DNA of 49,511 nt. Source: Ignavibacteriae bacterium HGW-Ignavibacteriae-2 (GTDB lineage: Bacteria > Bacteroidota > Ignavibacteria > Ignavibacteriales > Melioribacteraceae). The position numbers were made by a program, and so were the translations under genes. Position 1 is the stretch's first letter. Every line of letters begins with the position of its first letter. Shown in pieces: positions 2,312 through 43,809 of the stretch. The notes under the pieces are model-generated. The model was not told the DNA's origin and searched no databases. It was given only the letters and a program-made list of their open reading frames with translations. The stretch covers positions 1 through 49,511 of the forward strand of contig PGYT01000023.1 in the NCBI GenBank assembly GCA_002839805.1, given 5' to 3'.

Positions 2312-5300
2312 TTATTTTTTAATTTCCTTTTTCTGCAATGCCTCGTAATATTTTCTGATAATGTCTTCGTAATCTTTAGAATAACCTTCGCGAATAGCTT
2401 TCATCAATTCGTCCCGCAATTTATCTTTGCTTTCTTCTGAGGAAAGAATTAGTTCAGGCGGTGATTGCCTGGTTAAATTTTTGCCGGAGTTCGATTCGCG
2501 CTCCTTTTCAAAATCACGCTCATTTACAGAACGTTGAGCGTCAAGCAGTTTCGAAAGGATTCTTTCCTGGGCTTGAATTAAATCGTCATCAAGTTTTTCT
2601 GTTCGCATTCCGGAGACAACTTCCTGCATTTCATTCAGAATTTTTTCTAAATTCGTGCCTAATCTTTTCGACATTCCGGATTCTCTTGCTTCCTTATTCA
2701 TCTGTTCAAGTGATTTGCGTATCATTTCCTGTTCCTGGGCCAAACGCTGCATTTGGGACATTTGCTGCTGAGAGAGCCCTCCCTCTTTAAGCTGCTGAGT
2801 AAGTTGATTTAACGACATTTGTTGCTGCGACATCTGCTGCATTTGCTGCATCATAGACATCATTCCACTCCCTTGTCCGCTGCCGTTCATCATTTGTTCC
2901 ATTCCGCCTTTTAATAGGGAGGCTGCTTCGTTTAAATGCTGCATTGCCGCGCCCTGCTTTTGCATAGCCGAGGAATTTGTTTGCTCCTGCATCGACGAAA
3001 TAGCTTCCGACATCTCTCTGCGTGCCTGTCCTAAAGCTTTACCCATCTCTGGTGTTATAGCAAATGTTTTTTGCGAAAGGTTGGACATTTGTTGAACAAC
3101 TTTATCAAGATTACGCTGTAAATCATTTTGTTTTCTGGCGTTCTCTTTAAACTGATCGGAGGAATGTGAAGTTTTAGAAGTGTTCGATTTTAAAGATTCC
3201 TGTTCTTTTGATAATTGCAATAAATTATTAACGGCTTTCATCATTTCGTAAAAAGATTGCATTTGAGTTTGCATTTGTAAATTATTCTGCATCTGCATCA
3301 TTTGCTGTTTCATGTCCTGCATATTTTGTGATAGCTGCTGCTGGTTTTTCATCGCCTGCATTTGCTGCTGCTGCTGCAGCTGTTGTTTTGTTTTTTCCGA
3401 CAACTCCTTATTCTTTTGCTGTTTCATTTGTTCGAGCATCTTTTCCAAATCCTGCACTGGCATATCTTGGAATTCGTTCATTTTCTCTTTTAATTGATCC
3501 ATTTCTTCATTAAGCTTTTGAAGATCTTTTGAAACTTGATTTTGTTTTTCACTTAATTCATTGTTCTTTTTTTCATCGGACAACTGTGCTTTATTTGTTT
3601 CGGTCTTAAGGTCATCAAGTTTGTTTGTTATTTCTTCTGTTCGTTTTACAAGTTCATCCACCTTCTGTTCTATTTGTATACGTTTAAGCAGATTGAGAGT
3701 CCGCTCCAAACTTTTCTGAAACAGTTCTTCGTTGAACTTCATTTCTTCAAACGCCTGCTGAGTTTGATTTCTATTCATATTTTTCAACATCTCCTGCAGT
3801 TTCTCCATAGCACTTTTCAGATCCTTGTTATTCAAATCGTCCATAAGTGACTGCAGTTCAAGATATTTTTCAAGAGTTTTTTCTGATAATAGTTTATTTT
3901 CTTGTAAATCTTTTTGCATTTCGTTCAGCTTCTTTTGAACGTCCTGAACCTTATTAGAAACCTCCTCAAAATTCTGCATTGCTTTTTCAATCTTGTTCTT
4001 TTCTTCCCAGGTAAGTTCGCGGTTGTCTTGTTTCATTTCGTTAGAAATTCTTTCAAGATCTTTTGACAATTCTTTAGTCTCTTCCAATAATTCTGTTAAA
4101 TCTTTTTTCGCTTTTTCCTGAGTGTTTTCGGCTACATTAAATATTTCATCAATTGATGGAACACGAATATTAAACAATGCTGTTTTGTTAGATTTTGGAC
4201 CATTAATATTATCATTGTCATATACTTCAAGGTAATAAGATAAAACGTCATCAACCGCCAACACCATGGATTTAAGATCCCACACAAAATAAACTTCCTG
4301 CTCTTTTGTGTTTTTTATGGAAAGATTCATTTGTTTATATTCTTTCCATGGCTGTTCAAACTGAGAAGCGGAAATTCTATAATTTAGAACAAGTTTATCG
4401 AACCCAAAATCGTCTGAAATGCCGGCCGTCAAAGGAATTTGGTTGTTTTGTCCAAGTTTAATATCTGCATTGGGAGAGATCATTTCGATGGAAGGGTATT
4501 CGTCTAAAATAGCGGTTATGTTAAAACTTATCGGGTTTACATTAAAATTTCCGTCTGTATCTTTTAAGATAATTTGATAAGACGTGCTTTTCCCGATATT
4601 AAATCCGCCCGAGGCTCCGTTGTTTTTAACTTCCAAAATAACTTTTGAACTATCGGCAAAAAGGCAATATGCTTCAGAAATACTTTTGTTGGTTTTAATA
4701 CTAATTTTTACTCTGCTGCCGGTTAAAGCTGTCAAGTTTCCGTTATCTTTAATAATGGTTAAGGGAAGTTTAGAATACTTTGGGGGAATAATTGTCGCTT
4801 CAAATACATTTATAAAAGGGCTATTAACAACCTGTACATTGTAAACTTCGCTAGAAATATTTTCCGCTGACGCAAAATAATTGAAAGAATTATTTACATT
4901 ATTTATTCTATAGGTAAATAGACCTAATGAATCCTTAGTGATTTCTTTCTCTTCGTATGCCGATTGTTCTATACTTTGCGTTGATAAAAAGATTGTTTCG
5001 GGTGAATGCCCTATGGCGCTAACCGAAATTAGAATCTTATCACCTTTGGCAACTTTAACATTACCAGGTTCTATATGCAAACTAAATTTTGCCGGTATTA
5101 TAAATTCTGTGTTATAATTTAAAATTTTAAATGAGGATAACCGTAGTTCCGGTATAAAAGCAAAAACAATAGTTGATATGATAATGGACAATAAAGATAA
5201 TCTGAAATAACGTTTGGTGATGGAGTATTCCAGAATTTTTTCAAATTTTAAATCTCGTGTTTTTTCATAAACATTTTTTACAGCGGCTTCAACTAAAGCT

Positions 5301-5686
5301 CCGCTGTAATTATTTGATTCCGCATCTTCGGCTAATTGAATTGAATTAACAAGATTGTCTTTTATTTCCGGAAATTGATTACCGACTTTTTGAGCTAAGA
5401 ATAGGTAATCCGGCTTATTAAAAATAAATGCGGATTTTAAAACAGGAATGAAAACAAAAAAGAAAACTGAAAAGAAAAACACCGCTAATAGAATTAAAAA
5501 TAATATTGTTCTTTCCTGAACGCTATGAGCGCCAAACAATTCAGCAAAACTTACAGTTAGATTTATAACTAAAATTATAATAACTGTAAGAAAAAAACCT
5601 TCTAATGCTTTTTTATAGTAAGTTTTTTTAGCAACTGCTTTTAAGCGGTTTTTTAATTCTTCTATATAGTTTAATTGTGTTTTCAT
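2312..5686 (-). CDS. DUF4175-like large membrane protein with Gln/Met-rich coiled coil
   Basis: A 1124-aa envelope protein resembling the DUF4175 family. Two hydrophobic helices lie near residues 28-48 and 60-85, and a third near 160-180. An extracytoplasmic beta-rich region follows to about residue 510. The C-terminal half is charged coiled coil, grading into a tract dominated by Gln and Met (about 770-1000), then a charged tail. The start overlaps nothing and lies 2 bp after the stop of the DUF4159 gene, so the two are almost certainly translated from one transcript. DUF4159/DUF4175 proteins are often found with MoxR ATPases, DUF58 and von Willebrand-type proteins. None of these is next to this copy. 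Function is not established. Confidence 0.8.
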   Translation of the reverse strand: MKTQLNYIEELKNRLKAVAKKTYYKKALEGFFLTVIIILVINLTVSFAELFGAHSVQERTILFLILLAVFFFSVFFFVFIPVLKSAFIFNKPDYLFLAQKVGNQFPEIKDNLVNSIQLAEDAESNNYSGALVEAAVKNVYEKTRDLKFEKILEYSITKRYFRLSLLSIIISTIVFAFIPELRLSSFKILNYNTEFIIPAKFSLHIEPGNVKVAKGDKILISVSAIGHSPETIFLSTQSIEQSAYEEKEITKDSLGLFTYRINNVNNSFNYFASAENISSEVYNVQVVNSPFINVFEATIIPPKYSKLPLTIIKDNGNLTALTGSRVKISIKTNKSISEAYCLFADSSKVILEVKNNGASGGFNIGKSTSYQIILKDTDGNFNVNPISFNITAILDEYPSIEMISPNADIKLGQNNQIPLTAGISDDFGFDKLVLNYRISASQFEQPWKEYKQMNLSIKNTKEQEVYFVWDLKSMVLAVDDVLSYYLEVYDNDNINGPKSNKTALFNIRVPSIDEIFNVAENTQEKAKKDLTELLEETKELSKDLERISNEMKQDNRELTWEEKNKIEKAMQNFEEVSNKVQDVQKKLNEMQKDLQENKLLSEKTLEKYLELQSLMDDLNNKDLKSAMEKLQEMLKNMNRNQTQQAFEEMKFNEELFQKSLERTLNLLKRIQIEQKVDELVKRTEEITNKLDDLKTETNKAQLSDEKKNNELSEKQNQVSKDLQKLNEEMDQLKEKMNEFQDMPVQDLEKMLEQMKQQKNKELSEKTKQQLQQQQQMQAMKNQQQLSQNMQDMKQQMMQMQNNLQMQTQMQSFYEMMKAVNNLLQLSKEQESLKSNTSKTSHSSDQFKENARKQNDLQRNLDKVVQQMSNLSQKTFAITPEMGKALGQARREMSEAISSMQEQTNSSAMQKQGAAMQHLNEAASLLKGGMEQMMNGSGQGSGMMSMMQQMQQMSQQQMSLNQLTQQLKEGGLSQQQMSQMQRLAQEQEMIRKSLEQMNKEARESGMSKRLGTNLEKILNEMQEVVSGMRTEKLDDDLIQAQERILSKLLDAQRSVNERDFEKERESNSGKNLTRQSPPELILSSEESKDKLRDELMKAIREGYSKDYEDIIRKYYEALQKKEIKK

Positions 5687-5688
5687 AA

Positions 5689-6342
5689 TTAGTGTGTTAA
5701 AGCATATACGATTATATTCGCGCCAAACTTGAGCGCTTCTTCTCTTTTATCTGTGGAATCGTTATGTACTTTCTGATCTGTCCAGCCATCGCTTGGATTA
5801 CTTTCGTATGTATAATAAAGAACCATCCGCCCGTCTAAAAAAACAGAAAATCCCTGCGGAGGTTTGTTGTCGTGCTCATGCGTTTTTGGAGGTCCTTGTG
5901 GAAATTTATAAACCAAATTGTATATCGGGTGATTGAAGGGAAGTTCAACCAAATCTTTTTCGGGAAATATTTTTTTTATTACTTTCCTTGCCGAATTATC
6001 CATACCATAATCGTCATCGATATAAATAAATCCTCCCCTTTCACAGTATACTCTTAGTTTTTGAGCCTCTGTATCGGATAAAACAAAATTTCCGTGTCCG
6101 GTTATAAATAAAAACGGATATGAATACAAATCATTTGATGCTATATCTACAAAAGTATACTCCGGGTAAACCTCAATGTTTGTATTCTCATTAATATAAT
6201 TTAACAAATTAACTTCCGCGGATGGATCGTTATACCAATCGCCCCCTCCATTATATTTTAATCTGGCTATCTGAAAACCGGATTTTTCCTGTGCGGAAAC
6301 AATGAAGCCCAAAAACATTAATATGATAACTATTTTTTTCAT
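5689..6342 (-). CDS. DUF4159 domain exported protein
   Basis: Exported protein of about 217 aa. I chose the ATG at 6342, which gives the clean signal peptide 'MKKIVIILMFLGFIVSAQ', over a GTG six codons upstream (6360). The mature protein begins 'FQIARLKYNGGGDWYNDPS', typical of DUF4159. It contains 'LFITGHGNFVLSDTEAQKL' and 'RGGFIYIDDDYGMDN', features of a glutamine-amidotransferase-like fold seen in this family. It lies directly upstream of the DUF4175 gene (2-bp gap) and is the probable first gene of that pair. The protein likely acts in the periplasm with the DUF4175 partner. The biochemical role is unknown. Confidence 0.82.
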   Translation of the reverse strand: MKKIVIILMFLGFIVSAQEKSGFQIARLKYNGGGDWYNDPSAEVNLLNYINENTNIEVYPEYTFVDIASNDLYSYPFLFITGHGNFVLSDTEAQKLRVYCERGGFIYIDDDYGMDNSARKVIKKIFPEKDLVELPFNHPIYNLVYKFPQGPPKTHEHDNKPPQGFSVFLDGRMVLYYTYESNPSDGWTDQKVHNDSTDKREEALKFGANIIVYALTH

Positions 6343-6427
6343 TCTGATTTTATACAACACTATACCGCTTAAGTTCTGTCTTCATTGGTTAAAAAAATTA
6401 CTTCTAATTAAGATTGAGGAAAGCGTT

Positions 6428-7567
6428 CTAATTTTCCAGTTGTAATCTGAGGATTGACAGCGATTCTTTTAATTGGCTGAGTCCGCTGAAATTATTTATT
6501 CTATAATTATTCAATTCTCTTCTGAATCTGTAATCTTTGCGCAAAAAATCAAATTGTTTTCCAACATCTTCCTGTTTTGCGTTTGTTATTTTTCTCATTG
6601 CGGAATCATCTTCCTCAATTTTGTAAGCTTGTGTAAATATGGTGTGCATTGTTTTTTCAAGTGTACGATTGCCTGAAATTTTTATTAAGTGATTATTTAC
6701 AGGCGGGTAAGTTGGACTCCACACAGGATTAATTCCACAATAATTGCAAAGTGCTTCGTATACAAATACAGTTCCATTAACTTTTCCTTCAAGCGAATAT
6801 CCGGCAACATGGGGTGAGCCATATTCTATTAACTTCAGAAGTTCGGTGTCAAAATCCGGTTCTTTTTCCCAAACATCCAAAACAACATATAAATCTTTTT
6901 TTAAATTCATTCTTTTTTTTAATGCTTCGTTGTCAACAACGGGACCTCGGGAAGAATTAATTAAAATGGCGCCCGGTTTTATCAATTCTATATTTGATTC
7001 GTTAAGAAGGTGTACAGTTTTATCAATTCCTTCTTTATTAAGAGGAACATGAAATGTTACAATGTCACACGAAAGAGCTTCTTGTAATGAACAATATCCG
7101 GCGGAAGGATTTAATCTTTCCAGCGGAGGATCATTCTTAAATACTTTTAAACCAAGGGATTCTGCAATTGCAGTGTTTTTTGACCCGATATTGCCGACCC
7201 CAATAATACCAATAGATTTGTCTTTAAGAGAAAGATTATATTTTACACAAATGCTAAAAATTGCGTTAAAAACATATTCTTTTACAGCATGCGAATTACA
7301 ACCAGCTGCGCTGGTAAAAGTTATATTGTTTTTTTTAAGATATTCCAAATCTATATGATCGGTGCCGATAGTTGCGGTGCCTACAAATTTAATGTTGGTT
7401 CCTTTTAAAAGCGATTCGTTTACCTCAGTGATAGAACGAACCACAAGGGCGTCGGTGTTTTTAAGGGCTTCATTAGATATGCCGCGACCTGGCATAAGAG
7501 TTACGCTCCCAATTGTGGAGAATGCCTCAAAGCCAAATGAAATATTTTCATCAACAATTATTTTCAT
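6428..7567 (-). CDS. pdxB: Erythronate-4-phosphate dehydrogenase (PdxB)
   Basis: NAD-dependent oxidation of 4-phospho-D-erythronate, the second step of DXP-dependent pyridoxal 5'-phosphate synthesis. The N-terminal 'MKIIVDENI' and 'TATIGTDHID' are PdxB hallmarks. The Rossmann motif GVGNIG is at residues 123-128. The likely catalytic residues are Arg207 ('NSSRGPVVD'), Asp231 and Glu236 ('LDVWEKEP') and His253 ('HVAGYSLEGK'), within one residue of the E. coli positions. The length of 379 aa equals the family norm and includes the C-terminal dimerisation region. It is on the same strand as, and upstream of, the DUF4159 gene with a 67-85 bp gap, so co-transcription is possible. No other pdx gene is in the window. 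Confidence 0.93.
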   Translation of the reverse strand: MKIIVDENISFGFEAFSTIGSVTLMPGRGISNEALKNTDALVVRSITEVNESLLKGTNIKFVGTATIGTDHIDLEYLKKNNITFTSAAGCNSHAVKEYVFNAIFSICVKYNLSLKDKSIGIIGVGNIGSKNTAIAESLGLKVFKNDPPLERLNPSAGYCSLQEALSCDIVTFHVPLNKEGIDKTVHLLNESNIELIKPGAILINSSRGPVVDNEALKKRMNLKKDLYVVLDVWEKEPDFDTELLKLIEYGSPHVAGYSLEGKVNGTVFVYEALCNYCGINPVWSPTYPPVNNHLIKISGNRTLEKTMHTIFTQAYKIEEDDSAMRKITNAKQEDVGKQFDFLRKDYRFRRELNNYRINNFSGLSQLKESLSILRLQLEN

Positions 7568-7662
7568 ACAGCGAAGATATTAAAAATTTCTATGTCTACG
7601 AATCCATTTTTAGGATTTCAAGCAAACATATGTTTTTTTGTAGAACAAATTTTCTATTATTA

Positions 7663-8313
7663 TTAATCGAAAGGGTAGCCTTTTTTATATGATACCTCTA
7701 GATCTCGCGGATCGTAATCGTCATCATCTTCATCCTCCCAATCATATTTTTCAAAAGGATCCTTTTTTCTAAAAACTATTGCAAATACCAGCCCTGTTAT
7801 TCCTCCAAAAAGATGCCCTTCCCACGATACACCGCTGTCTACGGGTAAAATTCCCCAAACCAGACCTCCGTAAAAAAAAGACACAAGCAGGGCTAATACA
7901 ATTGCTCTTTTATCTCGACGAATGATGCCGCTGAAAAATAAAAAAGAGACCATTCCGTAAATCATTCCGCTTGCCCCAATATGAAAGGATGCCCGCCCGA
8001 ACAACCAAAGCAATATTCCCGGCACAAAATATAAACCAAGCAATACTTTATTTGATGAAGTTGTATAGAAATAACAAATTCCCATAGAGAGCAAAAATAA
8101 CGGCAGTGTGTTGGAAAAAAGATGATCCCAACTTCCATGCAGAAGCGGAAATGTAAAAATTCCAAATAATCCTTCTATTCTGCGCGGAAATAATCCATAC
8201 CCAACCAAACTTATTTTAAATAGGGATTCAATTATTTTAATACCCCAAAGAATCAAAACAAGAGCGGATGGGATTTTAATGCTGTCAATAAATTTTTGTT
8301 TATCGTCTGTCAT
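7663..8313 (-). CDS. Rhomboid family intramembrane serine protease
   Basis: Six-helix integral membrane protease. The helix-4 nucleophile motif is 'GASGMIYG' with Ser115, and the helix-6 general base is His167 in 'EGHLFGG'. 'HGSWDHLFSN' supplies His64 and Asn68 of the oxyanion site. All catalytic elements are present, so it should be an active rhomboid. The C-terminus (residues about 185-216) is a cytosolic tail with a long acidic run (Asp/Glu from about 191-205), which is unusual for this short family. It lies 9 bp downstream of the AHSA1-like gene on the same strand and is likely co-transcribed with it. The substrate is unknown. Confidence 0.92.
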   Translation of the reverse strand: MTDDKQKFIDSIKIPSALVLILWGIKIIESLFKISLVGYGLFPRRIEGLFGIFTFPLLHGSWDHLFSNTLPLFLLSMGICYFYTTSSNKVLLGLYFVPGILLWLFGRASFHIGASGMIYGMVSFLFFSGIIRRDKRAIVLALLVSFFYGGLVWGILPVDSGVSWEGHLFGGITGLVFAIVFRKKDPFEKYDWEDEDDDDYDPRDLEVSYKKGYPFD

Positions 8314-8322
8314 TTCAAAATT

Positions 8323-8715
8323 CTATCTTTTCTCAAAATACTTTTTCATTGGAGTTATGTAATGTTCTTTCCAACCATCTTCATATTTTTTACCCTCACC
8401 ATCGGGAATATTGGAATGATTTAATATAAATAATGTAGCGCCGTTTTTTGATTCAAATATAATCTCTAAAAAAGAATCCGCGTCGGTTTCTTCGAATTCC
8501 TCAGTCCGCCAGCTCATCAAAACTCTTTTGTTTGGCTCCAATTCCAAAATTGTTCCGGAAATATAATTATCCCAGGCGGAATATTTACTTCCGACTATTG
8601 GATAAATTTCCGCTTCTCCACCTGTGAAACCCGAATGTTCCTCACTGTTCAACCAGGACGTATATAGTTTTCCCGGCAAAACGGAAAATGTTTCAATTAT
8701 TTTTATTGAGTCCAT
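8323..8715 (-). CDS. SRPBCC/AHSA1-like domain protein
   Basis: A 130-aa single-domain START-like protein of the Activator-of-Hsp90-ATPase-homology-1 type. It opens with 'IKIIETFSVLPGKLYTSWL', has the central 'GTILELEPNKRVLMSWR' strand pair, and ends 'GWKEHYITPMKKYFEKR'. All are usual landmarks of AHSA1-like proteins, which fold around a hydrophobic ligand pocket. There is no signal peptide, so it is cytosolic. It precedes the rhomboid gene by 9 bp. The ligand and function cannot be read from the sequence. Confidence 0.85.
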   Translation of the reverse strand: MDSIKIIETFSVLPGKLYTSWLNSEEHSGFTGGEAEIYPIVGSKYSAWDNYISGTILELEPNKRVLMSWRTEEFEETDADSFLEIIFESKNGATLFILNHSNIPDGEGKKYEDGWKEHYITPMKKYFEKR

Positions 8716-10458: not shown

Positions 10459-11697
10459 TTAATTATCCTCTAAAACTGATTCGTAAAAATTAAATACCGT
10501 TTCATCTACCCAATCATAAAAATTTTTCGCTTCTTGTTTCGGAATATGTCCTAATAATCTCCACTCTTTCATTCTTTTTTGTGATTCACGAATTATGCTG
10601 TTTTCCATTGGATTTAGTTTTTTTAATATTCCGGTTCCTTCTTCATTTACTACAAAAGGCAGATTCAAATATTTGTTCCCGGAGCCGCGTTTAATTGGAA
10701 AACATTTGTTTTTAAGCCGCAGAGAATAGTCACACAAGGGTGCTATTCCACTCTCGTTTTCAGTTAAACAGGCGGGTAAGTTTTTGCCCGTTTCTACCCA
10801 AGTTGGAATTGCTACGGAACATAATTGAAATCCAAGTATAGTCCAAACTGTTGAAAGCTTTGGTGATTCCCCTTTTTTTACACCTTGAACTAAAATCGTT
10901 GAAACAGAAGAATTTCGCACAATAAAATCTTCAAATGGATAAAATTTTGTCTCTTTTTCGCTTACTTTTTGTTCACTTAAATTGATTCCTGTAAGAGAGT
11001 TTTTTAAACATCTGCTAACGTCCTGAAGGATAAATTTATACGATAAATTATTTTCAGCTTCGGCGTTATAAAATAGTTGTTCAGCTGTAAGATATCGTAT
11101 ATATCCATACCCTTCATCCGGGGCGCCTGAAAACGAAAAATTTGTTCTAATCAGATATCCGAATGGTGCGGTAATAGGATCATTTGCGTCGAACTTTTTA
11201 TAGGAGAAATTATCACACTCAAAATATGCGCAACCTCCGGCCGCATCAATAACACCGAAATTTGCTTCGACCCCCAAAGGTTTGGGCAGTTCCATTAACA
11301 ATTGTTCAAATTCATCAATATTAGCACATTTCTGTAAAGCCAGCTTCATTAAAAAACCTTCTTTATCCATCTCCTTCGTGGTATCGTTTTCAGGTTTAAG
11401 ATTATAAGAAGCCGAATTCATAATTGCGAAACCCGCTTCGTTGCAGCCACCCCATACTTCATCACCATTTTTATCAACACTATTAACTAATCCTATATAT
11501 GGATATTTTCCATCTTCAAAATACATAAGTTTATTCTGCTCAAAAGAAGCGTCGCGGTGTTTTACAAGAATTGGCCTTCCATCATTTGTAAATTTTCCCG
11601 AGATAATTGCCGTTGTGCATGAAAATATATTTACTGTCTGAAAAAAAAATGCGGTTGCTAAAAGATACGATATTATCTTAATATTCATTTTTTCCAA
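10459..11697 (-). CDS. Exported Ntn-hydrolase-like protein (peptidase C45/C59-type)
   Basis: Predicted N-terminal-nucleophile hydrolase acting outside the cytoplasm. A hydrophobic leader ends at 'NIFS', followed directly by Cys27 in 'CTTAIISGKFTNDGRPILVKH', then 'RDASF'. This is the arrangement expected when signal cleavage exposes a catalytic Cys, as in C45 (acyl-CoA:6-APA acyltransferase-like), C59 or C69 hydrolases. 'GGCNEAGFAIMNSAS' and 'NFGVIDAAGGCAYFE' are further Ntn-fold landmarks. Either Met1 or Met4 could be the start. Substrates in these families are amide bonds of small peptides, penicillins or acyl-amines. The exact one here is unknown. It is transcribed away from the putative origin. 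Confidence 0.75.
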   Translation of the reverse strand: MEKMNIKIISYLLATAFFFQTVNIFSCTTAIISGKFTNDGRPILVKHRDASFEQNKLMYFEDGKYPYIGLVNSVDKNGDEVWGGCNEAGFAIMNSASYNLKPENDTTKEMDKEGFLMKLALQKCANIDEFEQLLMELPKPLGVEANFGVIDAAGGCAYFECDNFSYKKFDANDPITAPFGYLIRTNFSFSGAPDEGYGYIRYLTAEQLFYNAEAENNLSYKFILQDVSRCLKNSLTGINLSEQKVSEKETKFYPFEDFIVRNSSVSTILVQGVKKGESPKLSTVWTILGFQLCSVAIPTWVETGKNLPACLTENESGIAPLCDYSLRLKNKCFPIKRGSGNKYLNLPFVVNEEGTGILKKLNPMENSIIRESQKRMKEWRLLGHIPKQEAKNFYDWVDETVFNFYESVLEDN

Positions 11698-11799
11698 TTA
11701 TTTTTGTTGTATTTGTTTTAAAATTACAAAAACAATACTATCAGACAAAAGAAATCCGAAAAAAACAGTCTAAAAACAAATTATTTTTAATAAAAATAG

Positions 11800-11970
11800 T
11801 GTTAATAACCTTCATTTTTATGTTGATAACTATTGTTTATTGTGTGGATAAAACCAGAGTTACCAACCCACTGTTAATAAAAACATGTTGTTCAAATGTT
11901 ATACACATGCTTTAAGTAGTAATTATTCCTTTAAGTTAAGTTGATAAAACAACTTAAAAAGTTATCAACA
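11800..11970. promoter_or_regulatory. DnaA-box cluster
   Basis: 9-mers matching or close to TTATNCACA are: a perfect TTATCCACA on the minus strand at 11843-11851; TTATACACA on plus at 11899-11907; TTATCAACA on minus at 11821-11829 and on plus at 11962-11970; TTATCAACT on minus at 11939-11947. Two weaker TTATTAACA sites lie on minus at 11800-11808 and 11872-11880. The pair at 11939-11947 and 11962-11970 faces inward with 14 bp between. Several boxes within 170 bp is far above casual occurrence even in AT-rich DNA. Confidence 0.78.
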
Positions 11971-11984
11971 AATTAACACTGTTA

Positions 11985-12062
11985 TTAATACTATTAAGTT
12001 TTAAAAAGAATATAAAATATTATTATTAATAATGGTGTGTGTTTACATCCATAAGCTATTAT
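11985..12062. other. AT-rich candidate DNA unwinding element
   Basis: The tract from about 11985 to 12031 is nearly free of G and C, including ATATAAAATATTATTATTAA. It lies directly after the last DnaA box and before dnaN, the position expected of a duplex unwinding element. The assignment rests on composition and position only. Confidence 0.5.
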
Positions 12063-12133
12063 AAATTATGGAAATACAGTCCAATTTTTGATATATTACT
12101 TTGTTAAAAAAAAATAATTTTTCGGAGTAATTC

Positions 12134-13264
12134 ATGGAATTTAAAGTTAATAGTAAAGAGCTCGAAAAACTGCTCACTAAAATTATTCCGGCAGTTCCTA
12201 CAAGAACTCCAATGCCTATTCTCGAAAACTTTTTATTCGAAATTAAAGATGGTTTGTTAACTATTTATGCTACCGATCTGGAAATTTCTTTAAAATCTTC
12301 AATAAATATTGTTACTGAAGACAACATTAGCATTGTAATTCCGGCTAAACTTCTTTATGACGTATTAAGATCTTTAGGAGATACTACTGTTCATTTTGAC
12401 ATCGCCGGTAACGGTAAATTAAATTTAACAACAGACAATGGTCAATATTCTCTAAGCTATTTGGGAGCGGATGAATTTCCCGAAATACCTTCTTTTCCGG
12501 AAGAAAACGAAAGCGATGATTTAGCTGAAATCTCTATCAACGGAATGGATCTTAAAGAAGCTCTTGATAAAACTTCTTTCGCTATGAGCAAAGAAGAAAT
12601 GAGACCCGCAATGATGGGAACTTTATTGGAATTCAGGGAAGAAGGCTTAAGATTTGTTGCGACGGACGGACATCGGTTGGTTAATTTATTAAATAAAAAA
12701 ATTGTTACTGGTTTAGATAACCAGTATATAGTTCCCGAAAAAGCTATATCTGTACTTCAAAAAGTACTTGACGAAAAAGATGTAAAATTATATATGACTA
12801 AAACTCATATCTCTTTTAGACTTAGTGATATCGAATTGATTACACGTTTGATTGGTCAAAAATATCCTGATTACAAAAGTGTAATTCCTTTGGAAAATGA
12901 GTTCGATCTTAAATTAGAGACAAAAGAACTGCATAACGCTATTAAACGAATGATGTTGTTTTCAACTTCAAATACAAGAAGAGTTAAATTTTCAATCAAA
13001 GAAAATAATCTTGAAATTTCAGCTGAAGACCTTGATATAGGAGCTTCAGGTCGCGAAAATATTATGTGTAAATATTCGGGGGATGCAATTGATATTGGTT
13101 TTAACTCCGCATATGTGCATGATATTCTAGCTCATTTGAATGAAGAAAAAGAGATAATATTTAAGTTACATTCTTCGACAAAAGCTGTAGTAATAGTCCC
13201 TAGTGTAAGTAAAGAAAATGAAGAACTGATGATGCTTATAATGCCGGTTCGATTGAATAATTAG
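12134..13264 (+). CDS. dnaN: DNA polymerase III beta subunit (sliding clamp)
   Basis: Ring-shaped processivity clamp that tethers the replicative polymerase to DNA. The 376 aa divide into three clamp domains of about 120 residues each. The start has 'MEFKVNSKELEKLLTKIIPAVP' with 'RTPMPILENFLFEI', the middle has 'ATDGHRLVNL', and the end has 'MLIMPVRLNN', the typical C-terminal MPVR-type clamp ending. An SD-like GGAG at 12124-12127 sits 6 nt before the ATG region. recF begins 1 bp after its stop, so the two are one transcript. Placement next to the origin is standard. Confidence 0.97.
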   Translation: MEFKVNSKELEKLLTKIIPAVPTRTPMPILENFLFEIKDGLLTIYATDLEISLKSSINIVTEDNISIVIPAKLLYDVLRSLGDTTVHFDIAGNGKLNLTTDNGQYSLSYLGADEFPEIPSFPEENESDDLAEISINGMDLKEALDKTSFAMSKEEMRPAMMGTLLEFREEGLRFVATDGHRLVNLLNKKIVTGLDNQYIVPEKAISVLQKVLDEKDVKLYMTKTHISFRLSDIELITRLIGQKYPDYKSVIPLENEFDLKLETKELHNAIKRMMLFSTSNTRRVKFSIKENNLEISAEDLDIGASGRENIMCKYSGDAIDIGFNSAYVHDILAHLNEEKEIIFKLHSSTKAVVIVPSVSKENEELMMLIMPVRLNN

Positions 13265-13265
13265 T

Positions 13266-14384
13266 ATGATTTTAAGATCCCTAGGTTTACGAAATTTTAG
13301 ATTACACAAACAAACTAATCTAGAGTTTTCGGAAAATCTGAACTATATAATTGGAGGAAACGGGCAGGGGAAAACCACAATATTAGAGGCTATTTATTAT
13401 TTGTGTACTACCAAAAGTCTTAATCAATGCCTGGATGCCGAAGTTGTAAATTTTAATGAGACGTTTTTTGAAGTGACAGGCCAGTTTAGAGATTTAGCGG
13501 ATAATAGAACGGGTATCTATTACAATACAGATAATAATAAAAAATCTATTTTTATTGATGATAAACAAATTTACCGAGCGTCTGCAGTTATAGGTAAATT
13601 TCCTGTTGTTACTCTTATCCAATCTGATCATGCTATTACCCAGGGAGCTCCGGCGGAAAGACGAAAATTTGTTGATTCAATTATTTCACAAGCCAGCGAA
13701 ACTTATCTTAATTTCCTGTTAGATTATAATAAAATATTAAGACAAAGGTCGGCGCTTTTAAGTAAGATAAAAGAAACTAATGATAAATCACTTTATGGAC
13801 AATTGGAAGCTTGGACTATAACACTTGTCAAAACCGGATCGGAGTTGGTGAGACACAGGATGAAGTTTGTTAAAAGTTTTAATGAATATGTAGCCGAGGC
13901 GTATCAGAAAATAATGGAAGATTTTGAGGTACCCTTTATAAATTATTCTTTCCTCGGGGAAATGGATGAAAATTTGATAGAAGATAGATTTAATGAAGAA
14001 TTGATGAATTTACAGTCAGATGAACTTTTAAGATCAAAAAATTTGGTTGGACCACACAGAGATGATTTTTGTTTCTCTGTTAACGGATACGAGTTACGTA
14101 AATATGGATCGCAAGGCCAGCATAAAACATTTCAAATAGCTCTAAGATTCGGTCAATTTTTTTACATGAAAGACACATTAGGAAGAACCCCTATATTCCT
14201 TATGGATGATGTTTTTGGAGAACTTGATACTTACCGAGCTAATAAAATTAGTTTATATCTTAAAGAAATTGGACAAGCGTTTATAACGATGACAGATTTT
14301 TCAAAATTGGAAAACATTAACGTCAGTAGAAATGATTTTGTGCTGACTGTAAAAAACGGTGGAGTTATTAGTGCCGAAAAGTAA
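13266..14384 (+). CDS. recF: DNA replication/repair protein RecF
   Basis: SMC-like ATPase that helps load RecA at single-strand gaps with RecO and RecR. Walker A 'GGNGQGKTT' is at residues 30-38, the ABC-type signature region 'GSQGQHKTFQIALR' at about 281-294, and Walker B 'PIFLMDDVFGELD' at about 312-324. The length of 372 aa is normal. It follows dnaN with a 1-bp gap, and its 3' end overlaps the start of the DUF721 gene, which shows tight translational coupling in a dnaN-recF-DUF721 operon. Confidence 0.96.
   Translation: MILRSLGLRNFRLHKQTNLEFSENLNYIIGGNGQGKTTILEAIYYLCTTKSLNQCLDAEVVNFNETFFEVTGQFRDLADNRTGIYYNTDNNKKSIFIDDKQIYRASAVIGKFPVVTLIQSDHAITQGAPAERRKFVDSIISQASETYLNFLLDYNKILRQRSALLSKIKETNDKSLYGQLEAWTITLVKTGSELVRHRMKFVKSFNEYVAEAYQKIMEDFEVPFINYSFLGEMDENLIEDRFNEELMNLQSDELLRSKNLVGPHRDDFCFSVNGYELRKYGSQGQHKTFQIALRFGQFFYMKDTLGRTPIFLMDDVFGELDTYRANKISLYLKEIGQAFITMTDFSKLENINVSRNDFVLTVKNGGVISAEK
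14361..14364 (+). promoter_or_regulatory. Shine-Dalgarno that selects the DUF721 start
   Basis: GGAG inside the end of recF, 6 nt before a GTG at 14371. An earlier in-frame GTG at 14359 would overlap this site and has no comparable upstream purine motif, so 14371 is the better start for the DUF721 gene. Confidence 0.5.
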
Positions 14385-14658
14385 TTTTAAAAAAGTTAGC
14401 GATATTATTGAAACTGACAAAGCATTCGATAAAATAAGAAAGAAAGCTAAAGAATTTGATATAGTAGAAAAATTCAAAGAAATTTTTCCTGATTTAGGAA
14501 AAATTGCAGAAGCAAAAAAAATTGAGAAAGAAATTTTATTTCTACGCGTAGAAAACTCGGTTTGGAGAAGCGAATTAAATTTTAAACAAGCTATAATAGT
14601 TGAAAAAATAAATTTACATTTTAAAGAAAAAGTAGTTAAAGCGATAAAATTTTTATAA
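14371..14658 (+). CDS. DUF721 (DciA-like) protein
   Basis: Small protein of 95 aa (99 aa if the GTG at 14359 is used) beginning 'MPKSNFKKVSDII'. The core has 'KEIFPDLGKIAEAKKIEKEILFLR' split across two helices/strands, and 'VENSVWRSELNFKQAII' matches the DUF721 family landmark 'V.n..W..EL...'. Family members include DciA, which assists loading of the replicative helicase in bacteria lacking DnaC/DnaI. Position between recF and gyrB, overlapping recF by 14 bp, fits a replication role. The DciA function is inferred from the family and context, since this short form consists mainly of the KH-like domain. Confidence 0.82.
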   Translation: MPKSNFKKVSDIIETDKAFDKIRKKAKEFDIVEKFKEIFPDLGKIAEAKKIEKEILFLRVENSVWRSELNFKQAIIVEKINLHFKEKVVKAIKFL

Positions 14659-16641
<1,983 letters not shown>

Positions 16642-16693: not shown

Positions 16694-19144
16694 ATGGCAA
16701 CAATTTTTGAAAAAATATTACCGGTATCATTAGAAGATGAGATGAAATCCTCCTATATCGATTACGCTATGTCAGTTATTGTAGCACGTGCACTTCCTGA
16801 TGTAAGAGATGGATTAAAACCGGTACACAGACGAGTATTATATGGAATGCATGAACTGGGACTTGGACATAATAAAACTTATAAAAAATCCGCGAGAATA
16901 GTTGGTGAAGTTTTAGGTAAATATCATCCTCATGGTGACACTGCAGTATATGATTCTATGGTAAGAATGGTTCAGGAATTTTCCTTAAGATACCCGCTAG
17001 TGGAAGGGCAGGGTAATTTCGGCTCGGTTGATGGTGACGGCGCTGCGGCTATGCGTTATACAGAAGCTAAAATGGCGCGTATAACCGAAGAAATGCTTCG
17101 GGATCTTGATAAAAACACAGTCAATTTTACATCTAACTTCGATGATAGTTTACAAGAACCAACAGTTATGCCTGCTTATCTACCGAACTTATTGATAAAC
17201 GGTTCGAGCGGTATTGCCGTTGGCATGGCAACTAACATTCCGCCGCATAACATCAATGAGGTAATTGATGGAATTCAAGCTCTGATTGATACCCCGACAC
17301 TTACTTCCGAGGATTTAATTAAATATGTAAAAGCACCCGACTTTCCCACCGCCGGTATTATTTATGGTTACGAAGGCGTAAGAGAAGCTTATACAACGGG
17401 CAGAGGCCGCATTATAGTTAGAGCCAAAGCTAATATTGAAATGCACAAAAACGATAGAGAAACTATTGTTATAACAGAACTTCCATATCAGGTAAATAAA
17501 GCAAACTTGATTGAAAAAATAGCCGATCTTGTTCGTGAAGGTAAATTGGAAGGCATAACAAACATAAGAGACGAATCAGACCGTGATGGAATGCGAGTTG
17601 TTATTGAAATGAAACGCGACGCTCAACCAGCGGTAATTTTAAATCAGTTGTTCAAACACACCCAGATGCAAACTACGTTCGGCGTAATAATGCTCGCTTT
17701 GGTAAACGGCATCCCCAAAGTGCTTACTCTTAAAGAAGTTATGCAGCATTTTATAAATCACCGAATGGAAGTTCTTATAAGAAGAACTAAATACGAACTT
17801 GAAGCGGCCGAAAGAAGAGCCCATATATTAGAAGGTTATATTATTGCTCTCGACAATATCGATCAGGTAATTGAAACGATTAAAAAATCGCCTGACGTTG
17901 AAACCGCGAAACAAAATTTAATGAAGAAGTTTAAGCTTTCGGAAATTCAAGCCAAAGCAATTCTGGATATGCGTCTTCAAAGACTAACAGGACTTGAAAG
18001 AAAGAAAATCGAAGATGAATATAAAGAAGTAATTAAATTGATTCAAAAACTCCAGGGTATTCTGGATAATGAAAGCAGAAGATATAGAATAATTAAAGAA
18101 GAACTATTGATTATAAAAGAGAAATACGGCGACGAAAGAAGAACGGAAATTATTTACGATTATAAAGAATTTTCTTTAGAGGATATAATAGCTGAAGAAG
18201 ATGTTGTCGTTACAATTTCACACGGTGGCTTCATAAAAAGATTTCCCGTAAGCGGCTATAGACGTCAGGCACGTGGCGGAAAAGGAGTAACTGGTGCAGG
18301 AACAAAAGAGGAAGATTTTATTGAACACATGTTTATAGCTTCCACACACCATTACATTTTAATATTTACCGATCAGGGTAAATGTTACTGGCTTAAAGTA
18401 CATGAATTACCCGAAGGAGGCCGAGCTACCAGAGGACGCTCTATTCTTAACCTTATAGAGAAAGAAAAGAATGAGTCTATAACGGCCTTTGTTACTGTAA
18501 AAGAATTCAGCGACGATAAATCTCTTTTGATGGTAACTAAAAACGGAACAGCCAAAAAAACACTTCTTTCGGCCTATTCTAACGTAAGACGCGGTGGAAT
18601 TAATGCTATAAATCTTGTGGAAGGTGATACTTTAGTCGCTGTAAAAATGACTGAAGGCAATAATGATATTATTATTGGAACACGCAAAGGTATGGCAATC
18701 CGCTTCAACGAAAAAGATGTTCGTGATATGGGAAGAACGTCAACAGGAGTGCGCGGCATAAACCTTTCCAAAGGGGATGTGGTAATAGGATTTATAGTTG
18801 TAAGATCCGGTACAACATTACTTGTAGTTACAGACAAAGGATTCGGGAAAAGAAGTGAAATAGATGATTACAGAATTACTAAACGTGGCGGCAAAGGGAT
18901 TATAACAATTAAAACAGGTGATAAAATAGGTAATCTAATAGCACTTATGGAAGTAAACGATAATGATGAGCTTGTTATTATTACTGAGCAGGCAATGGTA
19001 ATAAGACAGGCAGTAAAAAATCTTCGAGTGATGGGAAGAAACACTCAGGGGGTTCGACTGCTTAAGCTAAACGATGATGACTCGATTGCTGATATTGCAA
19101 GAGTAATTCCAGAAGATCAGGATATAGACGAAAACGATCTTTAA
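16694..19144 (+). CDS. gyrA: DNA gyrase subunit A
   Basis: DNA breakage-reunion subunit of gyrase, 816 aa. The N-terminal '[16 protein letters not shown]' is diagnostic. The active-site tyrosine is Tyr122 in '[10 protein letters not shown]', the same number as in E. coli. The quinolone-determining region reads '[12 protein letters not shown]', with Thr83 and Asp87. Thr at 83 is the wild-type residue in several lineages, so it is not evidence of acquired resistance. The C-terminal beta-pinwheel has the GyrA box 'QARGGKG', which separates it from topoisomerase IV ParC, and an acidic tail. It is last in the dnaN-gyrA run and is followed by a terminator. Confidence 0.97.
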
Positions 19145-19219: not shown

Positions 19220-20407
19220 ATGACGAAAGAAAAAAATTATCATTTCGATTCAAAATGCGTTCATGCCGGAATTGGAGATTACGAGTTTGGGCCTGTTGTG
19301 CCCCCCATTTATCAAACATCAACTTTTAAATTCGAGAACGCCAAACATGGTGCGGATCTATTCAAAGGTGAAAGAGAAGGATATATTTATACAAGAATGC
19401 TTAACCCAACCGTTCAGGCGATGGAAAATGCTATCGCTGAACTTGAAGGAGGTTATAAGGGATTAGGTTGTGCAAGTGGAATGGCAGCGATAAGTACGAC
19501 TTTTTTTGCGTTGTTAAAATCCGGAGATCACCTAGTTTGTTCAAAAGCGGTTTATGGACCGACTAATACCTTAATCAATACTATAATATCTCAACTTGGA
19601 ATAACTGCAACATTTGTAGAAGCATCCCAAACAGAAGAAGTAAAATCCGCAATTAAAAAGAACACAAAAGTTATTTATATTGAAACTCCTGGCAATCCTA
19701 CATTATCAATAGCTGATCTTACAGCTATTTCAGAAATAGCTCATGAAAATAATGCCAAATTAGTTGTAGATAATACATTTATGAGTCCGGCCCTGCAACA
19801 ACCGATTCAATTCGGAACAGATGTTGTACTGCATAGTATGACGAAATTTTTAAACGGCCACGCGGACGTTGTTGCTGGAATAATTGTAGTTAAAGACGAA
19901 GAGACATACAAACATTTTCGCAAAACGCTAAACCAACTCGGTGGTGTTATCGACCCTTTTAACGCGTTCCTGGTTCACAGAGGAATTAAAACTCTTTCCT
20001 TAAGAATGCAGCGACATTGTGAAAACGCTTTGGTAATAGCCGAATGGCTTGAACAGCATCCTAAAATAGAGTGGGTACGATATCCGGGACTTAAAAACGA
20101 TCCTGATTATATGATTGGACAAAAACAACATACGGGTCCCGGAGGTATGATAACATTTGAATTAAAAGGCGGATTTGAAGCCGGCGAAAAAGTTATGAAT
20201 TCTGTAAAGTTCTGTCAGCTCGCTGTAAGTCTTGGAGGAGTGGAATCGTTAATTCAACATCCCGCTAGTATGACACACTTAACCATGGGTAAGGAAGCAC
20301 GCTCAATAGCCGGTATTACAGAAGGGCTGGTGAGACTTTCAGTAGGAATTGAAAAAGTTGATGATATTATTGCAGATCTAAAGCAAGCTTTTGACCAAAT
20401 AGACTAA
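19220..20407 (+). CDS. Cys/Met-metabolism PLP-dependent enzyme (methionine gamma-lyase/cystathionine gamma-synthase family)
   Basis: Fold-type I PLP enzyme of 395 aa acting on sulfur amino acids. The PLP lysine is Lys209 in 'HSMTKFLNGHADVVAG'. Asp184 in 'VVDNTF' binds the pyridine nitrogen, and 'YTRMLNPT' gives the phosphate-binding Tyr57/Arg59 of the neighbouring subunit. The C-terminal 'SLGGVESLIQHPASMTH' is common to gamma-lyases and gamma-synthases. Overall similarity looks closest to methionine gamma-lyase. However, the cysteine usual in that enzyme's active site (Cys116 in Pseudomonas) is Pro114 here ('YGPTNT'). Cystathionine gamma-synthase, gamma-lyase or O-acylhomoserine sulfhydrylase are therefore open alternatives. 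It lies between two terminators, so it is a single-gene unit. Confidence 0.88.
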   Translation: MTKEKNYHFDSKCVHAGIGDYEFGPVVPPIYQTSTFKFENAKHGADLFKGEREGYIYTRMLNPTVQAMENAIAELEGGYKGLGCASGMAAISTTFFALLKSGDHLVCSKAVYGPTNTLINTIISQLGITATFVEASQTEEVKSAIKKNTKVIYIETPGNPTLSIADLTAISEIAHENNAKLVVDNTFMSPALQQPIQFGTDVVLHSMTKFLNGHADVVAGIIVVKDEETYKHFRKTLNQLGGVIDPFNAFLVHRGIKTLSLRMQRHCENALVIAEWLEQHPKIEWVRYPGLKNDPDYMIGQKQHTGPGGMITFELKGGFEAGEKVMNSVKFCQLAVSLGGVESLIQHPASMTHLTMGKEARSIAGITEGLVRLSVGIEKVDDIIADLKQAFDQID

Positions 20408-38205: not shown

Positions 38206-39321
38206 CTAAAAATAGGAGGAATCACGAGTTAATACCGCCATTCCCATTGAAAAAAGAGCCAAAAGTTCCAGCCACAATTCACTAAAACCAACTCCTTTAA
38301 GAATAACTCCCCTAATAATAGTCATAAAATATCGCAGAGGAACAACATATGTTAACCATTGAATGAACTGTGGCATGTTTTCTATGGGGAAAGCAAATCC
38401 TGATAGGAAAATCATTGGCATCAGAACAACAAATATGGCGAGCATCATAGCCTGCTGCTGAGTGCGCGATAAAGTTGAGACAAGTATGCCGAATCCTAGA
38501 GTTGAAAGGGTGTATAAAAAAGCGCTGAAGAAAAGAAAAGTAAAGCTCCCGCGAGTATAAATTCCGAATATAAAAGTCATAGCGGTAAGTATAATTCCAA
38601 CTACAACAAAACCTAAAATGGCGAAAGGAATTAGTTTTCCCAATATTAATTGAAGAGGTTTTATTGGTGAAACAATAATCTGTTCCAGAGTGCCAATTTC
38701 TTTTTCCTTTACTATTGCCAAAGAAGTAAGTATTAGTGTAATAACGGATAAAAGAAGTCCAACAATAGCCGGCACCATAAACACACGTGTTTTTAATTCC
38801 GGATTATACCAGGCGCGTACTTCAGCTTCTATCGATCCAACGGGTGAGATTTTCTGACCGGTTTTATTCCTGTAATCCATAAGAATGTTGCGAGCAAATT
38901 TATTTGTTATACTCATTACATATCCCGCGGATATTGACGCTTTATTTCCGTCTGAGCCGTCAAATATAATCTGCAAAGGAGTTGTTCTGTTTCTGCCAAT
39001 GTTTTTTTCGAATTCATTGGGTATAACAATACCAAGGGTCGCGGAACCATTTTCTAAGTGCGATTGAATATCATCATAATTGTCAACATAATCGACAATT
39101 TCAAAATAATTGCTGCTTGAAAATTTATTGATATACTCGCGGCTTGTTTGAGAATGATCCTGATCGAAAACAACTGCCGTTACATGTTCGATATCCATGT
39201 TAACAGCGTATCCTAAAAAGATCAGTTGAATAACGGGAGCCAGCAAAATAATACCAAACATTTTTGGATCGCGTTTGAATTGTTGAAATTCTTTTTTGAT
39301 GATATGTAATATTGTTTTCAT
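38206..39321 (-). CDS. ABC-2 type transporter permease (second of pair)
   Basis: A 371-aa permease of the YbhR/YbhS type. It has one N-terminal membrane helix (about 22-42), a large periplasmic domain (about 45-175), and five more helices at the C-terminal end. Motifs include 'KEFQQFKRDPKMFGIILLAP' and 'VKEKEIGTLEQIIVSPIKP', the loop that contacts the ATPase. The C-terminus ends 'GMAVLTRDSSYF' without the usual basic tail. No other reading frame extends it, so I do not call a frameshift. It is the last gene of the efflux operon, 17 bp after the first permease. Confidence 0.92.
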   Translation of the reverse strand: MKTILHIIKKEFQQFKRDPKMFGIILLAPVIQLIFLGYAVNMDIEHVTAVVFDQDHSQTSREYINKFSSSNYFEIVDYVDNYDDIQSHLENGSATLGIVIPNEFEKNIGRNRTTPLQIIFDGSDGNKASISAGYVMSITNKFARNILMDYRNKTGQKISPVGSIEAEVRAWYNPELKTRVFMVPAIVGLLLSVITLILTSLAIVKEKEIGTLEQIIVSPIKPLQLILGKLIPFAILGFVVVGIILTAMTFIFGIYTRGSFTFLFFSAFLYTLSTLGFGILVSTLSRTQQQAMMLAIFVVLMPMIFLSGFAFPIENMPQFIQWLTYVVPLRYFMTIIRGVILKGVGFSELWLELLALFSMGMAVLTRDSSYF

Positions 39322-39338
39322 TTTTTTATGTTCTGGTT

Positions 39339-40478
39339 CTATCTGTTAAACTCTGTTTTCTTTTTGTTTATAATTGTAGCAAGTCCCAATAAAATGGAGC
39401 TGAATAAAATAAGATAAAGCAATTGAGTCCAAAAGGCTTCAAGTCCTGCGCCCCGTAAAATTATCGCTCGCAAAACAACAATAAAAAATTTGGCGGGAGT
39501 AATATTCGTTAAAATCTGAACCGCTATAGGCATGCTGTCTATAGGGAAAATAAAACCCGAAAGAATAACAGATGGCAGCAAAGAAACAAAGGTAGCAATT
39601 GTAAAAGCGACTTGTTGTGAGTCCGATATAACCGAGGCCAATATTCCCATGCTCGTGCAAGCAAACAAAAAGATTAAAGTACTCATAAATAAAAGCAAAT
39701 AATTCCCTTTTACCACAACGCCAAACATAACATATCCGGCAAGTAAAATTAGCGAGGCGTTTATTAAAGCTACAATTAAATATGGCAGGGATTTACCAAG
39801 CAACAACTCTATTGTAGTAATTGATGAAACATTAATCTGTTCTATGGTGCCTTTCTCTTTCTCTCGGACCAAAGTTAATGCCACTGTAATTACCGCGCTT
39901 ACTATTAAAATTAGAGCGATCAATCCGGGTATTAAAAACTTAGTAGTTTCAAGATCGGGATTAAACCAGAAAATTGGCTGAAGATCAATCGGTATTTGCA
40001 GCGATTTTCCATAACGTGCGACAATTTGTTTTTGATATTTTAGATTAAACGTATAAACGGCGGAATTAACATAATTTTGAATTATGCTGGCGCTGTTTCC
40101 ATCGACACCGTCAATTAGAAATTGAATTATTGCGGGCTCTTTAGCGGAAAAGAAATTATGTGAAAAATCTTTTGGTAGAACAAGCACAACCTGAGCGTCT
40201 TTTTTATCTAGAGTCTGTTTTATATCTTCGTAATTACTTATGGTTTTTGTGACTTTAAAGTAACTGGAACTTGTAAGGGAGTTGATAAATTCACGTGAAA
40301 TATCAGACCTCTCCTGATCATATACACCAAGCTGAATATTTTGAACGTCAAAGTTTACGGCATAACCAAATATCACCAGAAGCAAAACAGGAAAAGAAAA
40401 TATAACAAACAACATTCTTGTGTCGCGAATAAGCTGTTTCAATTCCTTCTTAGCAATAGCACGTAATCTCGAAATCAT
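39339..40478 (-). CDS. ABC-2 type transporter permease (first of pair)
   Basis: A 379-aa permease paralogous to the next gene, with the same layout: helix about 23-43, a large extracytoplasmic domain, then five helices. Landmarks are 'KELKQLIRDTRMLFVIFSFP', 'LTLVREKEKGTIEQINVSSI' and 'LSGFIFPIDSMP'. Its start overlaps the stop of the upstream ATPase by 4 bp (ATGA), so the two are translationally coupled. The two permeases probably form a heterodimer in the exporter. Confidence 0.93.
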   Translation of the reverse strand: MISRLRAIAKKELKQLIRDTRMLFVIFSFPVLLLVIFGYAVNFDVQNIQLGVYDQERSDISREFINSLTSSSYFKVTKTISNYEDIKQTLDKKDAQVVLVLPKDFSHNFFSAKEPAIIQFLIDGVDGNSASIIQNYVNSAVYTFNLKYQKQIVARYGKSLQIPIDLQPIFWFNPDLETTKFLIPGLIALILIVSAVITVALTLVREKEKGTIEQINVSSITTIELLLGKSLPYLIVALINASLILLAGYVMFGVVVKGNYLLLFMSTLIFLFACTSMGILASVISDSQQVAFTIATFVSLLPSVILSGFIFPIDSMPIAVQILTNITPAKFFIVVLRAIILRGAGLEAFWTQLLYLILFSSILLGLATIINKKKTEFNR

Positions 40479-41407: not shown

Positions 41408-41481
41408 CTTCTAAAATGAATATGATTAATTTGCTTAGCATTATATGCGACTATCATAAAATTCCCAGTAATATGTTTCAA

Positions 41482-42795: not shown

Positions 42796-42842
42796 TTAAT
42801 TTACCCGTACTACTTTGTAATTCAATTTCCGACAGCTTAAAT

Positions 42843-43763: not shown

Positions 43764-43809
43764 CAGAGAGGCAAAAACAAATAGTTTCCGAGCCTCAGTT
43801 CCTCTTCGT

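Follow-up and report, generated by a model that had tools for sequence, protein, structure and literature searches.

Where does replication begin on a chromosome in which dnaN stands without dnaA beside it? This question is raised by a stretch of 49,511 nucleotides (the window, on contig C141) from the draft assembly of Ignavibacteriae bacterium HGW-Ignavibacteriae-2 (4.16 Mb, 147 contigs, 99.9% complete), in which the interval 11698–12133 lies between a minus-strand AAT-like gene and dnaN. Origins are often annotated by looking beside dnaA or dnaN. This rule fails repeatedly, and in different directions, in the class to which the genome belongs, and gene neighbours therefore mislead unless the core of the origin itself is found. 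On the basis of sequence comparison, we consider it highly probable (approximately 0.88) that the region at 11.8–12.1 kb is the chromosomal oriC and that dnaA was split off from it by a rearrangement in the ancestor of a subclade. In the following, genomes, contigs and loci are designated by G, C and L, respectively.

Gene neighbourhood of the interval

The genes to the right of the interval are all on the plus strand and comprise dnaN, encoding the sliding clamp (12134–13264; TIGR00663 above the cut-off), recF (13266–14384; TIGR00611 above the cut-off), dciA (14359–14658; PF05258, without an NCBIfam match), gyrB (14686–16641; Pfam) and gyrA (16694–19144; Pfam). An earlier sequence-only reading had given the order as dnaN-recF-DUF721-gyrB-gyrA, and the gene calls confirm it, the DUF721 gene being dciA. 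DciA, a helicase-recruiting family, is thus encoded two genes past dnaN, counting from the origin core. The gene after gyrA, for a Cys/Met PLP enzyme (19220–20407, plus strand; PF01053), also follows gyrA in several relatives.

To the left, genes for DUF4175, DUF4159, a 2-hydroxyacid dehydrogenase, a rhomboid and an AHSA1 protein (2312–8715) and the AAT-like gene (10459–11697) lie on the minus strand. The left flank had been described as an Ntn-hydrolase; there is a match to PF03417 (AAT), an Ntn-type family, and it is borderline, with 23.1 bits against a cut-off of 23.2. The reported absence of dnaA from the window was borne out, as the single dnaA match in the assembly lies at C118:33635–34978.

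DnaA boxes, AT-rich tract and core

Six matches to TTATNMACA were found in 11698–12133, two forward and four reverse, in agreement with the boxes in both orientations reported earlier. The reverse boxes (11800–11880) are TTATTAACA at 11800, TTATCAACA at 11821, TTATCCACA at 11843 and TTATTAACA at 11872, and reverse boxes also occur in the dnaN-upstream region of many relatives. The forward boxes are TTATACACA at 11899–11907 and TTATCAACA at 11962–11970, and a seventh, weak site, TTATCAACT (11939–11947, reverse), has one mismatch to TTATCMACA. In 1000 dinucleotide shuffles of the interval, the mean number of TTATNMACA matches was 0.30, the maximum was 3, and none reached 6. A scan with TTWTNMACA showed the cluster to be the densest 300-bp cluster in the window. 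The stricter TTWTNCACA occurs 9 times over the whole window against 7.9 expected, that is, at chance level, and the claim of an origin therefore rests on the local box cluster.

The AT-rich tract noticed earlier corresponds to the 200-bp segment with the highest AT content in the window (11921–12120, 82.5% AT, in steps of 10), which is a candidate DNA unwinding element. The peak 60 bp of the interval, at 11974–12033, has 90% AT, a value attained in 0.01% of 60-bp windows overall. The last DnaA box is followed by the AT maximum of the window.

The putative origin core, at 11960–12021 on the plus strand, is BUS-like and consists of the box TTATCAACA (11962–11970), an overlapping degenerate second box AAATTAACA, a DnaA-trio-like triplet run, CTG TTA TTA ATA CTA TTA, and the AT-rich tract. 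BUS-type origins, which combine DnaA-boxes and DnaA-trios, are described for Bacillus subtilis and many others in PMC8287927, where the rule is given as one or more boxes, a spacer of at most 16 bp and at least three trios. The box at 11962–11970 is followed by a spacer of 8 nt, overlapping the degenerate second box, and by six NTN triplets, in accordance with this rule, which is loose and easily satisfied by AT-rich DNA. Compared with the BUS arrangement given in PMC8287927, the tandem boxes, the short spacer, the triplets centred on T on this strand (A on the other) and the AT-rich tract are alike; however, the second box of the window is degenerate, the run includes ATA and CTG, and the unwinding element is a predicted one.

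Conservation of the core in relatives

In the Melioribacteraceae relatives in which dnaA adjoins dnaN (adjacent relatives), the usual order is c8 and an asparaginase gene on the minus strand, dnaA on the plus strand, the spacer, dnaN, recF, dciA, gyrB and gyrA. The spacer contains a conserved core of TTATCAACA, a second box-like TATTAACA, TTATTATTATTA and then AT-rich DNA, an arrangement of the BUS type. This core is conserved between dnaA and dnaN in 31 adjacent loci and aligns with 11959–12026 of the window. The alignment of dnaN-upstream regions comprised 43 rows, taken from loci in which dnaN had 66% identity or more and 700 bp of upstream sequence was present; L018, L075, L039, L048, L067 and L037, with no or almost no boxes, were dropped, as were L056 and L062, duplicates of L015 and L016. 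A model using sequence only, R1, was trained on all 31 alignment rows with dnaA in the same locus and on no split locus.

R1 was run across 26 genomes, with scoring limited to 150 first-look candidates in each. Among the 150 of 2264 candidates scored in the present genome, the best match was C141:11960–12021, with 17.7 bits and an E-value of 0.015, followed by C122:12944 with 17.3 bits. With the filters off, the core in the window reached 21.9 bits, and the next match in the window, of 12.1 bits, lay in the same interval. The runner-up on C122 again scored 17.3 bits when rescored in this way; it sits inside an open frame of 1032 aa, and no box lies within 500 bp of it. A default-filter run over 47 loci did not list the window site, which indicates that the core match is modest in its own genome. 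Just upstream of dnaN in the loci that have the same junction as the window, R1 gave 38.6 (L057), 34.7 (L033), 28.6 (L066), 25.4 (L032), 25.4 (L035) and 24.2 bits (L042). As judged from alignment and model, the core in the window is homologous to the one that the relatives have between dnaA and dnaN. The box cluster beyond the shuffles, the AT peak and the R1 core all speak for the probable oriC beside dnaN that had been proposed from the window itself.

Several other loci have dnaN without dnaA. No TTATNMACA was found close to dnaN on its upstream side in L018 (G066), L014 (G009), L039, L082, L091 and L107, and L048 has one only at −640; therefore, a position beside dnaN alone proves nothing. 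The dnaN of G009 (2.4 Mb) is diverged, with 48% identity. In that genome, the 700 bp upstream of dnaN contain no TTATNMACA, and the best R1 match, with an E-value of 0.25, is not convincing.

A shared junction between the left flank and oriC-dnaN

The left-flank genes of the window lie directly left of oriC-dnaN in L032, L033, L035, L042, L057 and L066, and the AAT-like left neighbour itself is common to L032, L033, L042, L057, L066 and G058, a genome of the same genus. In G058, contig C39, which carries six left-flank genes of the window, ends within the core, and the dnaN side on contig C33 begins 131 bp before dnaN.

A dnaN tree was built from 86 proteins. Of these, 47 were labelled adjacent, a label that required dnaA within the same locus no more than 10 kb upstream; 8 had the shared flank, 17 were split in other ways and 14 were unknown. 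The shared flank was assigned by reading the loci, and loci with less than 2.4 kb upstream were labelled unknown unless the shared flank was present. The eight shared-flank rows, including the window and G058, form one group with two unknown rows and with no adjacent row inside (UFBoot 94, just below the mark of 95; SH-aLRT 92). This grouping fits an origin of the junction in one event in the ancestor of the shared-flank group, and the AAT-like gene is the derived left neighbour of the origin. Many relatives in the family have the order dnaA-oriC-dnaN, and the new junction is shared by the clade of the window, as expected if dnaA moved or the origin region was rearranged, which was the explanation offered earlier.

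The dnaA locus and its upstream module

The dnaA gene on C118 has four TTATNMACA boxes within 260 bp upstream, and none was found within about 500 bp downstream. The upstream region was surveyed in 54 distinct dnaA loci, with the tblastn-inferred start as the reference for positions. Reverse boxes are present at −31 to −10 in 45 of the 54 loci, at −120 to −75 in 45 and at −270 to −225 in 51, and all three positions are occupied in 35. Between −260 and −190, 53 of the 54 loci carry an inverted repeat that matches GTGAAA-N2/3-TTTCAC with no more than two mismatches (39 exact), the spacer being 2 in 35 loci and 3 in 18; the sole locus without it, L108, is titled Pseudomonadota bacterium. In the control of 31 dnaN-upstream stretches, the best fit to the repeat has 2 to 4 mismatches. 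The repeat is kept, with at most one mismatch, in all eight dnaA loci without dnaN in the stretch examined, including that of the present genome. Upstream of dnaA on C118 (L010, 10031–10545), GTGAAA-CG-TTTCAC lies close to tandem DnaA boxes. The exact 15-mer TGTGAAACGTTTCAC occurs in 9 of the 149 genomes of the class, upstream of dnaA in 8 of these 9 and elsewhere in G007, and a text search of one literature collection for GTGAAACGTTTCAC found no paper.

The module is present in loci with dnaA and dnaN adjacent and in split loci alike, which indicates that these two families inherited it from an ancestor, that it goes where dnaA goes and that it is not a new origin. The module stays with dnaA wherever it is found, and the core persists without dnaA; this suggests that the module belongs to the control of dnaA.

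Two other identities of the inverted repeat were considered. Its half-sites are the same as those of parS, yet they are in everted order. The sequence TGTGAANNNNTTCACA, after the consensus of Rex-type operators, was found with one mismatch 12 times in the present genome against 14 for the reversed control, that is, at chance level, and 22 times against 9 in G106, above the control; a Rex regulon is thus unsupported in the present genome and may exist in G106.

GC skew and parS

The minimum of the cumulative GC skew of the window, at 12.4 kb, follows gene orientation. In G106, a complete genome with dnaA and dnaN adjacent, the skew in 20 sampled stretches changes from positive to negative between 1.70 and 1.87 Mb, an interval that includes 1.80 Mb, the position expected opposite dnaA-dnaN, with 4 of the 20 samples having the wrong sign for their arm. 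The four-fold sites of G106 show little replication asymmetry and no clear replication-strand effect, which indicates that its skew is largely due to gene orientation. The skew of the joined G058 contigs has its cumulative minimum at 86.6 kb, against a core near 47.1 kb. In this family, the skew seems to follow gene orientation.

The parS site is usually near the origin. A search of the window found no parS; two perfect copies lie on contig C31, unlinked to the window, where mnmE ends and mnmG starts (L231, 2936–3061). Several relatives retain these neighbours of parS, and the G032 stretch does not. In G106, about 112 kb separate parS from the core in the dnaA-dnaN spacer; parS is therefore a marker of the region rather than of the exact site.

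Alternative explanations

The active origin could instead be the array of boxes that precedes dnaA on C118, the cluster in the window being a decaying relic, and the four boxes there, in an arrangement conserved over two families, speak for this. A second box cluster next to dnaA had also been named as an observation that would speak against an origin in the window. Such a cluster does exist on C118; however, it does not refute the origin in the window, because the same cluster lies upstream of dnaA where dnaA still adjoins oriC-dnaN, including where the published origin is the dnaA-dnaN spacer, and because R1 with the filters off found nothing above 7.6 bits in the 20 kb around this dnaA, so that the array is without an origin core. 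In the rest of C118, R1 found nothing above 11.8 bits, and the cumulative skew climbs through dnaA with no minimum there. The core in the window is, moreover, kept in the other clade members examined, unlike a relic, and the relic explanation is regarded as improbable.

An origin near parS and mnmE-mnmG, away from both dnaA and dnaN, with the cluster in the window regulating dnaN, is slightly less probable still. In some bacteria, oriC adjoins mnmG (gidA), and the two perfect parS between mnmE and mnmG on C31 would suit such a position; however, R1 with the filters off gave at most 5.8 bits in 20 of the 23.8 kb of C31, the AT peak and the tandem-box core are at the window, and the 112 kb between parS and the spacer core in G106 make parS a poor guide to the site. 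A draft of 147 contigs and the contig break inside the origin core of G058 leave room for an error of assembly or binning, by which the left flank was misplaced and dnaA is really adjacent. Left-flank genes, however, lie by oriC-dnaN also in L032, L033, L035, L042, L057 and L066, which are contigs of other records, and on C39 of G058, and dnaA is interior to contigs of 56.6 kb in the present genome and 163 kb in G058; in both, it has asparaginase on one side and, beyond a single intervening gene, the rnf operon on the other. As the junction is found in 8 of the 10 rows of the dnaN clade of the window, misassembly is unlikely, and we give this explanation hardly any weight.

Separation of dnaA and dnaN across the class

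Among the 149 genomes of the class survey, eight have at most six contigs. The distance between dnaA and dnaN is within 1 kb in two of these (G106 and G113), and the two genes are apart in the other six (G016, G027, G032, G037, G116 and G145). The place of the core after separation varies: it is with dnaN in the clade of the window, probably with dnaA in G032, or alone in G066.

The core of G066, with 22.7 bits, is situated 22 kb downstream from dnaA (G066:C79:105547–105611; L130, about 12548–12612). It is free-standing, without dnaN, and the Cys/Met PLP gene, normally the next gene after gyrA, begins 0.6 kb beyond it. The dnaN-gyrA block, with no boxes upstream, sits on a separate contig. In the complete genome G032 (5.24 Mb), a weak R1 match (E-value of 0.17) lies 230 bp downstream of dnaA, with parS 20 kb away and dnaN 1.96 Mb off. 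In G032, the sampled skew is positive in each of the 8 stretches between 3.77 Mb and, past the zero point, 0.87 Mb, which places dnaN, at 0.29 Mb, inside one arm. The other arm is mixed, with 5 negative and 4 positive of 9 stretches, the two nearest dnaA being positive, and the local change across dnaA is from −0.043 to +0.041. The core of G032 thus probably goes with dnaA, as judged by parS and weakly by skew.

The remaining cases are less distinct. G145 has three TTATNMACA downstream of dnaA and parS 16 kb from dnaA; R1 gives only 8 bits at dnaA, two other places score higher, and the sampled skew is without a clear pattern. In G119, a weak R1 match of 17.3 bits lies by dnaN, and dnaA is 31 kb away on the same contig. 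The core of G099 is beside dnaN (29.9 bits), and dnaA and dnaN are each within about 1 kb of contig ends, so that the two genes may or may not be separated there. In the complete, split genome G037, dnaA (1.32 Mb) and dnaN (1.80 Mb) are neither cleanly at a change of skew sign, the sampled skew being negative at 1.33 and 1.40 Mb, positive at 1.54–1.80 Mb and negative at 1.96 Mb, and the search with R1 found no match there.

Break-ups of dnaA and the origin are already known in other bacteria, and this family presents a clear natural series of them. Judged by titles and abstract openings, no earlier account of a dnaA-oriC separation in this group was found.

Comparison with known origins

The likely origin of Melioribacter roseus is a 303-bp dnaA-dnaN spacer with two clear transitions of the GC skew (PMC3534657). 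M. roseus belongs to the same family as the nearest named relatives of the present genome, and both origins have boxes upstream of dnaN; however, the left neighbour there is dnaA, whereas here it is the AAT-like gene, with dnaA on another contig. The core is likened to that of M. roseus through the aligned spacer cores of the relatives.

Bipartite origins, with oriC1 and oriC2 around dnaA, are described for B. subtilis, H. pylori and C. difficile in PMC7561715. The adjacent relatives likewise have arrays both upstream of dnaA and in the dnaA-dnaN spacer, and their conserved triplet run is in the spacer array. In the present genome, however, the two arrays are on different contigs and do not enclose dnaA, and joining C39 and C33 of G058 at the split core would place dnaA outside the 104 kb around the origin. 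The split genomes are a natural experiment that separates two box arrays studied elsewhere as one bipartite origin.

The oriC of E. coli is separated from dnaA, as stated in PMC8287927. The origin proposed here resembles it in having no neighbouring dnaA; however, dnaN-recF-dciA-gyrB-gyrA stay with the origin here. E. coli keeps dnaN beside dnaA and has oriC near mnmG.

Proposed mechanism and rearrangement

By analogy with work on other bacteria, DnaA would bind the box array, use the box at 11962 together with the weaker one beside it to load onto one strand along the trinucleotide run, and open the AT-rich tract, and DciA, encoded two genes past dnaN, may aid the loading of the helicase. In the ancestor of the family, dnaA was probably directly upstream of oriC. 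A rearrangement in the ancestor of the subclade would then have cut between dnaA and oriC, leaving oriC joined to dnaN-recF-dciA-gyrB-gyrA, and dnaA would have retained its upstream module and its divergent asparaginase neighbour, now close to the rnf operon. DnaA would since work in trans from a gene elsewhere.

It is also conceivable, though rather unlikely, that a formerly bipartite origin was pulled apart and that both halves are under selection at a distance, the dnaA-side module timing initiation from afar by DnaA titration, by long-range looping or through control of dnaA by a repeat binder, and not as a plain promoter. If this is true, the role of the upstream half, as a part of the origin acting in cis or as a regulator of dnaA, can be tested in nature.

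As to the rearrangement proposed for the subclade ancestor, a single inversion with breakpoints at dnaA|oriC and in the gap between rnf and the DUF4159 block yields both new junctions with the right orientations; we put it forward tentatively, at somewhat less than even odds, and the origin call is independent of it. DUF4159 lies right of dnaN by about 33, 72, 94 and 101 kb in G079, G140, G106 (taken as circular) and G039, respectively. DUF4159 and DUF4175 are right of dnaN in 4 of 4 relatives with both on the dnaN contig, and DUF4159 is on another contig in the other relatives compared in which dnaN was located. On contig C115 of G099, rnf and DUF4159 are on the same strand, 23 kb apart, as the inversion model predicts, but no homologue of the AAT-like, rhomboid or 2-hydroxyacid dehydrogenase genes was found on this contig. 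In G106, rseC is about 800 kb away, which counts against the model.

A further block of minus-strand genes lies at 38206–46117 of the window, 26 kb right of dnaN. In G099, and in part also in G079 and G039, this block is on the upstream side of dnaA; in L077, it borders oriC-dnaN on the left. These differing places of the block among relatives indicate that the origin region was rearranged more than once.
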